Assembly: GCA_009391195.1 (NCBI GenBank)
Contig: VEXB01000005.1
Location: 1-64,000 of the forward strand
Origin: SAR202 cluster bacterium AC-647-P02_OGT_505m
Lineage (GTDB): Bacteria; Chloroflexota; Dehalococcoidia; Lucifugimonadales; UBA826
DNA length: 64,000 nt
Direction: 5' to 3'
Part shown: positions 45,823 to 49,486 of the stretch, piece by piece
Layout of the letters: each line of letters begins with the position of its first letter
How positions within the stretch are numbered: the stretch's first letter is position 1
Made by a program: the position numbers and the translations under genes
Notes under the pieces: generated by a model
The model's input: only the letters and a program-made list of their open reading frames with translations
What the model was told of the DNA's origin: nothing
Databases searched by the model: none

Positions 45823-46197
45823 CTACTCCACAAACTCAAGAACAGCCATTTCAGCAGCGTCACCTTTCCTTGGTCCAAGCTTAGTCAGCCTGGTGTATCC
45901 GCCCTTTTCTCTCGCCTCAAATCTCGGAGCAAGAACCTCAAATACCTTTTTAACTATATATTCATCTGTTAAAAGAGCCGACGCTTGCCTCCTATGGTGA
46001 AGGGTACCTTTTTTACCAAGGGTAATGATCTTTTCCGCCATCCTCCTGACTTCCTTAGCCTTGCTGTCAGTTGTCTTAATCGACTCATGGCGTATAAAGT
46101 CTGTCACCATTGTCCGCAGCATCAACATCCTATGTGCAGTAGGTCTATTAAGTTTTCTACCAGAAATGTGATGTCTCAAATTATTCCTCTCCCTCAT
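45823..46197 (-). CDS. rplQ: 50S ribosomal protein L17
   Basis: RHHISGRKLNRPTAHRMLMLRTM; start refined to internal ATG (MRERNNLRH), overlapping the rpoA end. Confidence 0.95.
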   Translation of the reverse strand: MRERNNLRHHISGRKLNRPTAHRMLMLRTMVTDFIRHESIKTTDSKAKEVRRMAEKIITLGKKGTLHHRRQASALLTDEYIVKKVFEVLAPRFEAREKGGYTRLTKLGPRKGDAAEMAVLEFVE

Positions 46198-47224
46198 CCG
46201 TAGCTTCATCATCTTCTGACTGAACCTTGTTAGGATCCATGTGGTCCGGAAGAATATCCATATCTCTAAACTTGTCATAAAGTTCTGAGAAGGACTTTTC
46301 CCCAAAATTTCTGATGTCTAATAATTCGTCCTTTGTTTTTTCCATCACTTCACCGACTTTATTAAGTCCAGCTCTTTTTAAACAGTTGAGAGTTCGCGAA
46401 GAAAGGTCTAACTCCTCTACCGTCATATTGTAATGCTCTGCCGGAATGGCAAGTGATACTCCGCCCGAACCTTCTTCAGCAGCCTTCGACGCATTGGTAA
46501 ACAAGAAAAATTGATTCACCAAAATATTGGCAGCTTGCTCAACCGCTTCTACAGGATGAGTAGAACCATCAGTCCAAACTTCAAGTAGCAGATTTTCGTA
46601 GTCCGTCCGATGTCCCACACTAACCTGTTGAATAGTGTAGTTGACCTTACGAACAGGAGTGAATACAGCGTCAATAGGAATAGTACCGATAGAGAGCCCC
46701 TCGCTACTATCCGCAACCTTATATCCAGTACCGTACCCAATGTTCAATTCTAGTACGAGTTCGGCATTATCTGAATCCAGTGTTGCGATAGGCTGCTCAG
46801 GGTTCACCACCGTAAAGTCGGCAGATGCCATTATGTCAGCCGCTGTAACCAAACCTGGACCCCTTGCCTCAAGCCTAAGTTTGCCAGGCGTGTCTGACGC
46901 CGATTCAGATCTTATCCTGACAGCTTTAATATTTAGTAGAATTTCTTGTACTTCTTCCTTAACATTTTCGATTGTTGAGTATTCATGTTGAACTGTCTCA
47001 ACTTTTACCCAAGTCACAGCTGTTCCAGGGAGGGAATTGTATAGAACCCTTCTAAGAGGATTTCCAAGAGTTACCCCATATCCAGGATCAAGAGGACCGA
47101 CCACAAATTTTCCATATGTGTCAGTGGTTTCCTCAACCGAAATCTTTGTGTCAATAACTATCTCTTCTTCAAGTTCTGGCCCGTCAAGAATCGATATGTC
47201 TGAATAGTCCATTGCCATTGTCAT
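46181..47224 (-). CDS. rpoA: DNA-directed RNA polymerase subunit alpha
   Basis: GKFVVGPLDPGYGVTLGNPLRRVLYNSLPGTAVTWVKVE; C-terminal domain LDLSSRTLNCLKRAGLNKVGEVMEKTKDELLDIRNFGEKSFSEL; start refined downstream of the rpsD stop. Confidence 0.97.
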   Translation of the reverse strand: MTMAMDYSDISILDGPELEEEIVIDTKISVEETTDTYGKFVVGPLDPGYGVTLGNPLRRVLYNSLPGTAVTWVKVETVQHEYSTIENVKEEVQEILLNIKAVRIRSESASDTPGKLRLEARGPGLVTAADIMASADFTVVNPEQPIATLDSDNAELVLELNIGYGTGYKVADSSEGLSIGTIPIDAVFTPVRKVNYTIQQVSVGHRTDYENLLLEVWTDGSTHPVEAVEQAANILVNQFFLFTNASKAAEEGSGGVSLAIPAEHYNMTVEELDLSSRTLNCLKRAGLNKVGEVMEKTKDELLDIRNFGEKSFSELYDKFRDMDILPDHMDPNKVQSEDDEATDEGEE

Positions 47225-47244: not shown

Positions 47245-47844
47245 CTATTTGGAATAGAGCTCTACAATCTGAGTGGTATCGATTTCTGGCTCTCCATCCT
47301 CCGCCGTAGGAATTGTAATAACTGTCGTTTCCATATCCGCTTGACTCAATACGACCCAATGAGGAGTCGGTATTGTCTTGCAGTTTTCTTGCGCTATTTC
47401 AAACAAAGACGTTTTTTTTCCCTTCTCCGTCCACTGAATCACATCACCTTGATCAATTTGATAGGAGGGAATATTCACCTTCCTGCCATTTACATTAAAG
47501 TGCCCATGATTAACTGCCTGGCGAGATTGTTTTCTCGACAAAAACATTCCTGATCTGTAGAGCACGTTGTCCAATCTGCGTTCCAATAAAATTATTAGAT
47601 TGTCTCCAGTGACACCCTCTTGAAAAAGAGCCTTATCGAAGTAGTTTTTGAATTGTTTTTCCAGCACGCCATAAAGAAACTTAGCTTTCTGTTTCTCTTT
47701 AAGCTGCAGACCATAGGCAGAGACTCTTCTTCTTCTTGTAAATCCCTGATTGACTCTCTTGTCTTTTCTGGTCCCGTAAACGCCGTATGATTCCAGTCCT
47801 AGCGCTCTAAGTTTTTTCTGTATTGGTCCTGTGTATCTTGCCAT
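47245..47844 (-). CDS. rpsD: 30S ribosomal protein S4
   Basis: MARYTGPIQKKLRALG, ERRLDNVLYRSGMFLSRKQSRQAVNHGHFNVNGRKVNIPSYQ. Confidence 0.97.
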   Translation of the reverse strand: MARYTGPIQKKLRALGLESYGVYGTRKDKRVNQGFTRRRRVSAYGLQLKEKQKAKFLYGVLEKQFKNYFDKALFQEGVTGDNLIILLERRLDNVLYRSGMFLSRKQSRQAVNHGHFNVNGRKVNIPSYQIDQGDVIQWTEKGKKTSLFEIAQENCKTIPTPHWVVLSQADMETTVITIPTAEDGEPEIDTTQIVELYSK

Positions 47845-47845
47845 A

Positions 47846-48673
47846 TCATCCTACTAAACTTTTCGTATTGTTTTGCCCAGGTGCCCTAACTCCTAACTCG
47901 GAGATTAATTTATCAACGGTGAATCCCTCACTACGAATCCTTACATCGAAGTAAAGAAGTGTTACAGCAATCGCGGCCACCGTAACGGCTGCAGCATTAG
48001 AAATAAGACCTACAATGTATTGGATGGCGGTGGGAACAATCTGAAGCCCGTCAGACTCGCTTGGAACCAAAATTAAAGATGGAATTGAAAGTACGAGGGC
48101 GAGTCCCAACATCAACATAGTGATGAGGCAAATACCCCCTAGGACTCTTTTCCAATTGCTTTTCACCAGATCAAAACTCCGTGACAAAGCTTTTAGATAC
48201 TTGCTTCCTTCGTATATGGATACCGGTAGTGCCATAGAGGCAAACAAGAGAAACGCAAAAGATGCAATCGCAGGAATCAACAAAACAGCTCCGCCTATAC
48301 CAACCACCAACGCGGTAGTAAGTATAAAAGAAACGAATAACAGCGAATAAATCCTCCAAGATACTCTTAAAAAACAGGCACCGATATCTATACGACCGAA
48401 TGCGACTAGTTGTCCCACGCCCGCCGAGGCGGCAGAAAATACTGTGGTAGTGGCCACTACAGTTACAATCGCCGCTATGACATAGAACGCAACAGCTGAA
48501 CCGGAAATACTCCCCGTAGCTAAATACTCTTGCAAGCTCGCCTTAGGTCCGATAAACGTTAGGACGTTTACGGGTCCAAAAACGATAAATGCTATGACCA
48601 AAAAACCTCTTAGCCCTTTGCCATAAATAACAAAAGTTTCGTTGAGTATGTCTCCAAGACTTCTTTCTCTCAT
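47846..48673 (-). CDS. Multi-TM membrane protein of unknown function embedded in the alpha operon
   Basis: MRERSLGDILNETFVIYGKGLRGFLVIAF...; roughly six hydrophobic segments; C-terminal LLYFDVRIRSEGFTVDKL. Start refined from 48817 to 48673, after the rpsK stop. Confidence 0.85.
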   Translation of the reverse strand: MRERSLGDILNETFVIYGKGLRGFLVIAFIVFGPVNVLTFIGPKASLQEYLATGSISGSAVAFYVIAAIVTVVATTTVFSAASAGVGQLVAFGRIDIGACFLRVSWRIYSLLFVSFILTTALVVGIGGAVLLIPAIASFAFLLFASMALPVSIYEGSKYLKALSRSFDLVKSNWKRVLGGICLITMLMLGLALVLSIPSLILVPSESDGLQIVPTAIQYIVGLISNAAAVTVAAIAVTLLYFDVRIRSEGFTVDKLISELGVRAPGQNNTKSLVG

Positions 48674-48695: not shown

Positions 48696-49082
48696 TTATA
48701 CTCTTCTACGCTTTGGAGGTCTACATCCGTTATGTGGAATTGGAGTAACATCTCTGATACTGCTAACAGAGATTCCCGTGCTCTGTATGGCTCTAATAGC
48801 CGCCTCTCGACCTGCACCAGGACCCCTTACATATACGTCGACTTGTCTCATTCCCTGATCCATAGCTTTTTTTGCGGCGTCTTCCCCAGCCCTTTGGGCT
48901 GCAAACGCGGTTGACTTCCTAGATCCCCTGAAGCCAGCTGTCCCTGAACTGCCCCAAGCCACAGCGTTTCCAGTTGGATCGGTTAACGTCACTATAGTGT
49001 TATTAAACGTGGACTGTATGTAGGCTTTTCCAATTGGAACGGGCCCTCTGTCACGCCTTCGTGTCCTTGGTCGTCTTGCCAT
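48696..49082 (-). CDS. rpsK: 30S ribosomal protein S11
   Basis: [45 protein letters not shown]-terminal [13 protein letters not shown]. Confidence 0.98.
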
Positions 49083-49111: not shown

Positions 49112-49486
49112 CTACTCTGTCGTGTTTCTACGAGCAACTGCAATTCTTCGACCTCTTTTGGACCGGGCATTTGTCTTAGTCCTCTGGCCCCTTGCAGGCA
49201 ACGCCCTTCTGTGCCGGGTACCTCGATAGCTTCCAATATCGATAAGTCTTCGTATATTTTGGTTTACCTCTCGTCTAAGATCACCTTCAACAACATTCTC
49301 TCGATCTATAATCTCTCTTACACGATTCAAATCAGAGTCTTCCATGTCCCTAACCCGTGGGTTGTCAAACACTCCTGCTTTTTCCAATATAGATTTGGCT
49401 TGAAATGATCCAATACCGTAAACGCTCGTCAATGCAGTTTCGACTCTCTTGTTATCGGGTATATTAACTCCTGAAACTATCGCCAT
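49112..49486 (-). CDS. rpsM: 30S ribosomal protein S13
   Basis: SGVNIPDNKRVETALTSVYGIG, IDIGSYRGTRHRRALPARGQRTKTNARSKRG. Confidence 0.98.
   Translation of the reverse strand: MAIVSGVNIPDNKRVETALTSVYGIGSFQAKSILEKAGVFDNPRVRDMEDSDLNRVREIIDRENVVEGDLRREVNQNIRRLIDIGSYRGTRHRRALPARGQRTKTNARSKRGRRIAVARRNTTE

Follow-up and report, generated by a model that had tools for sequence, protein, structure and literature searches.

A membrane-protein cistron between rpsK and rpsD in the alpha operon of a lineage of SAR202 Chloroflexota

Few gene orders are as strongly conserved across bacteria as those of the ribosomal protein operons, and unrelated genes are seldom stably inserted into them. The canonical alpha operon runs rpsM-rpsK-rpsD-rpoA-rplQ, and in E. 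coli its usual autoregulator is ribosomal protein S4, the product of rpsD. The window analysed here, a 64,000-nucleotide stretch from SAR202 cluster bacterium AC-647-P02_OGT_505m (class Dehalococcoidia, phylum Chloroflexota), holds all five genes in this order on one strand, with one membrane-protein cistron added between rpsK and rpsD. Along the minus strand, rpsM (S13; 49112..49486) and rpsK (S11; 48696..49082) are followed by the inserted cistron (47846..48673), modelled as a 275-residue membrane protein with six transmembrane helices, and then by rpsD (S4; 47245..47844), rpoA (46181..47224) and rplQ (L17; 45823..46197, with an approximate start). The start of rpoA was set at 47224, the listed start at 47359 overlapping rpsD. 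The surrounding cluster is collinear, passing from a fusA-like ORF and rpsJ to rplO through secY, adk, map, infA, rpmJ, rpsM, rpsK, the inserted ORF, rpsD, rpoA, rplQ, truA and rplM to rpsI; most of these genes were named by inspecting translations, and Pfam models confirmed rpsK and rpsD. Among the nameable genes, the inserted ORF is the sole addition to an otherwise canonical S10-spc-alpha cluster. A literature search of incomplete coverage found no paper describing a membrane-gene insertion in the alpha operon, and nothing directly relevant on DUF4129/MoxR contexts or on insertions in ribosomal protein operons.

The first-pass annotation had described a membrane-protein ORF separated from rpsK by 22 nt and from rpsD by 1 nt, and these coordinates were confirmed. 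The rpsK stop codon (48698-48696) lies 22 nt before the ORF, whose own stop (47848-47846) is followed after 1 nt by the rpsD ATG at 47844. The ORF list begins the inserted gene at a GTG at 48817, within rpsK; the likely start is the ATG at 48673, hence the length of 275 residues. Spacing and strand suggest that the ORF is co-transcribed with rpsK and rpsD. Promoter-like and terminator-like sites in the stretch showed no excess over shuffled sequence, and an Rfam search returned no known ribosomal or alpha operon leader RNA.

The proposed translational coupling to S4 is not supported as a general feature, since the 1-nt gap is confined to this genus and the distance to rpsD is mostly 11-130 nt in other readable genomes. 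A Shine-Dalgarno-like stretch for rpsD, AGGA in the window and AGGA- or AGGG-like in the genus, lies inside the last codons of the ORF, again in this genus only. The cistron might act in cis as a spacer, changing how much S4, RpoA and L17 is made relative to S13 and S11 or separating S4 autoregulation from rpsK, and its position directly before the gene of the E. coli autoregulator, with the tight spacing and the embedded Shine-Dalgarno-like stretch, agrees with such a role. We nevertheless consider a cis effect quite improbable, as the protein itself is under strong purifying selection (see below), its spacing to rpsD varies among genomes and the Rfam search found no known alpha operon leader. 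As a separate observation, the S4 encoded in the window (47245-47844) lacks an N-terminal cysteine motif that most of the other order genomes sampled have in their S4; the order contains S4 proteins with and without the motif, and their distribution does not follow that of the insertion.

The inserted protein is 85% identical to the copy in another genome of the same genus (G001), with dN 0.088, dS 1.2 and dN/dS 0.074, while rpsD, rpsK and rpsM give dN/dS values of 0.012-0.021 in the same comparison. Its dN is about four to six times that of its ribosomal protein neighbours (0.088 against 0.014-0.021), and it is under strong purifying selection. Because this identity is retained at a dS of 1.2, with dN/dS near 0.07, the ORF is a real, constrained gene, and the low dN/dS within the genus together with homologues at the same junction in many families shows that it is not a chance reading frame. 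With the window genome being a draft of 57 contigs and 56% completeness, a misassembly or annotation artefact might be suspected, and the first-pass annotation had named a misassembly or one-off insertion as what would undo its proposal. The arrangement is, however, repeated in dozens of independent assemblies, including the single-contig genomes G020 and G048, which contradicts this concern and leaves an artefact with a negligible probability.

A homologue search of 60 relatives gave matches in 24, many of them located between rpsK and rpsD. The order was then surveyed by searching 108 genomes for rpsK (103 matched) and inspecting the DNA downstream of it. A same-strand homologue sits at the rpsK-rpsD junction in 28 of the 103 genomes with an rpsK match, spanning 13 families (f1, f2, f3, f6, f11, f16, f17, f24, f31, f32, f34, f36 and f39), so the insertion is conserved and not peculiar to this genome. 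Within the family of the window genome, it is present in genera g1, g3 and g5 and absent from g2 and g4. Where readable, order genomes without it have an rpsK-rpsD gap of at most ~160 nt; apparent gaps of ~600 nt in L153 and L236 were rejected as insertions, both being rpsD itself, missed by the search. Two details of individual drafts were also recorded: the operon copy at L026 (G046) is reported to have one in-frame TAA inside the match, and G188 has two rpsK loci (L188 and L196) in one draft, possibly through contamination (8% reported) or duplication.

A tree of other proteins of the operon (infA, rpsM, rpsK, rpoA and map), built by a quick method and with some long branches, places all 28 insertion-bearing order rows inside one 44-row clade with an SH-aLRT support of 100. 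Because these genomes share a single supported clade, one ancient gain followed by roughly nine clean losses fits best within the order. The whole tree implies 12 changes, two or three of which concern two further families of the class, f53 and f67. When the gaps of clade genomes without the insertion were read by eye, no remnants of a lost gene stood out. The gene is dispensable, given about nine losses and its absence from the close relatives g2 and g4.

The class survey compared rpsK and rpsD positions in 118 genomes, with gaps judged by eye from coordinate lists. Four gaps exceed 300 nt (G000, G072, G086 and G113), each holding a family member, and a profile search added a further class member with a junction copy (G308). 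Related genes are thus located at this junction in two more families of the class, f53 and f67, and every gene-sized junction insertion in the sampled order and class genomes belongs to this one family. In an 81-genome draw from the phylum, no adjacent rpsK-rpsD gap outside the class reached the size of the inserted gene, the largest being 474 nt (G472:C1:3862653-3863127); the best homologues outside the class lie without ribosomal neighbours.

A single origin of all operon copies was supported by a first protein tree, in which all of them, f53 included, fell on one side of a 98/94 branch. It was overturned by a larger tree that took in more class and phylum copies, where the f53 operon copies are nested among non-operon class copies with support of 99/93, and by an AU test, run after the tree had been seen, which rejected one clade of all operon copies (p 0.0006). 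Because the f53 operon copies are placed with non-operon copies, the junction has probably been occupied two or three times in the class. With phylum copies as outgroup, the tree points to separate insertions, with relocation out of an ancestral operon position as a possible alternative. The f67 copy sits on a long branch, and its placement is less certain than that of f53.

Outside the alpha operon, the neighbours of family copies differ from genome to genome in nearly all cases, and some copies lie inside operons. At L272 (3538-6345) two electron-transfer flavoprotein genes on one strand flank a homologue at distances of ~20 and ~40 nt, and at L283 (4825-8474) a spacing of 8 nt separates a nuoG-like gene from the zinc-ribbon homologue that follows it; the family copy of L265, a more distant genome, adjoins a DUF4129 gene. 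An N-terminal zinc ribbon is present in most non-operon copies of the order and absent from the operon copies. These zinc-ribbon proteins, encoded in the same Chloroflexota genomes, have a membrane domain and a C-terminal Y-D-x-R-x-R-K-E motif in common with the operon protein, and they form a group apart from the operon copies in the protein tree. When the 108 order genomes were searched with the family profile, full-length operon copies scored at least 202 bits and the remaining hits at most 168 bits, the one exception being an operon copy cut by a contig end; this split is partly expected, because most of the sequences behind the profile were operon copies. Given the split, the operon subtype was not found elsewhere in the order genomes.

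Since family copies also sit in unrelated operons, the ribosomal location need not be functional. The inserted gene may be a passenger, from a family that would spread by landing promoterless in the gaps of co-transcribed genes, with the alpha operon offering steady transcription and the membrane role unrelated to the ribosome. We regard this as a serious possibility. Its main support lies in the varied neighbours and operon settings of the non-operon copies, such as those beside the flavoprotein and nuoG-like genes, and it accords with the short, ordinary gap that repeated loss leaves behind. It accounts less readily for one subtype held at one junction across 13 families, for a second and perhaps a third lineage at the same junction, and for the lack of the subtype at other sites in the order.

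The inserted ORF is strongly hydrophobic, and an AlphaFold2 model from a 29-row alignment (mean pLDDT 87, pTM 0.85) is all helical with six membrane-length helices, which short amphipathic helices are predicted to precede. A conserved C-terminal signature, Y-D-x-R...E, is positioned by the model at the end of the last transmembrane helix, where alignment and model also locate the alignment-invariant residues Y241, R245 and E249. The basic tail suggests the sidedness of an inner-membrane protein. An internal threefold repeat could not be demonstrated by sequence alignment.

Resemblance to the membrane domain of glycerophosphoryl diester phosphodiesterases, raised in the first-pass annotation, is real but partial. 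Pfam PF10110 (GPDPase_memb) matches residues 118-227 with E 0.0023, but its score of 17.2 bits is below the curated cut-off of 29.6 bits, and the protein is therefore not a member by Pfam's rule. The profile match extends to 15 of 29 family members at E<=0.01; in contrast to a glycerophosphoryl diester phosphodiesterase, the inserted ORF lacks a phosphodiesterase domain. Pfam PF25231 (DUF7847) is matched by 8 of 29 operon-type members at E<=0.01 and by one non-operon zinc-ribbon copy, whereas the window protein has no match to it and individually scored relatives fall below the cut-off. No other Pfam or NCBIfam domain was found in the 275 residues, NCBIfam giving no match at all.

Foldseek matched no PDB structure at E<=0.001, and the nearest folds are 11-16% identical. 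The best fold matches are to human CTL1 of the CTL/SLC44 family, with TM-scores by query length of 0.56 (E 0.05) and 0.54, followed by yeast PNS1 of the same family at 0.49; the six-helix bacterial sulfate permease CysZ is a weaker match (TM-score 0.34-0.41 by query length, E about 0.9-1.3). PNS1 has been reported to be similar to CysZ, with three helix pairs plus three short helices, and a non-transport role has been suggested for CTLs (PMC13160678). The CTL/CysZ fold match consequently gives no substrate. Sequence and profile searches of the PDB produced no hit better than chance level (EMC4 fragment, E 0.5; PsbZ, E 0.07).

These comparisons bear on a link to SecY/YidC-type insertion, which the first-pass annotation had put forward and for which neither sequence nor fold provided evidence. 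A membrane-side partner of the ribosome or of SecY/YidC, anchoring ribosomes or aiding insertion, would suit a gene in the same cluster as secY and the ribosomal protein genes, and the conserved charged residues that close the last transmembrane helix are in its favour. We judge it very unlikely, as insertase matches are absent by fold and sequence, the nearest folds being CTL1/PNS1 and CysZ, and the EMC4 hit is not meaningful.

The ORF is a genuine extra cistron of the alpha operon. Within the limits of the trees, the ancestor of a large clade of the order gained it in a single event between rpsK and rpsD, and it was passed on by vertical descent with several clean losses. Its product is modelled as an inner-membrane protein with six transmembrane helices. 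Our tentative preference is for a growth-coupled function of this protein in the membrane, linked to the expression of the ribosomal genes, with the passenger gene close behind. In its favour are the spread over 13 families within one supported clade, the purifying selection, the restriction of the subtype to the junction and the use of that junction by relatives in f53 and f67. The losses, the family copies in unrelated operons and the faster change of the protein relative to its ribosomal protein neighbours count against it. From its position in line with the ribosomal protein genes, within the cluster that also holds secY, the amount of protein should rise and fall with ribosome production. 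Its role may be growth-coupled membrane housekeeping, for example support of membrane or envelope biogenesis at high ribosome output; a stress-induced or substrate-specific role seems somewhat less likely. A bolder reading, which we consider unlikely, is that this lineage has in its alpha operon a membrane protein dedicated to coupling ribosome output to membrane capacity, and that other lineages of the class independently came by such an arrangement at this junction.

A membrane-protein family that entered one junction long ago, has been kept there under selection and was apparently inserted more than once provides a natural test of whether operon position carries function. The inserted gene is a candidate for coupling membrane and ribosome production in these bacteria.
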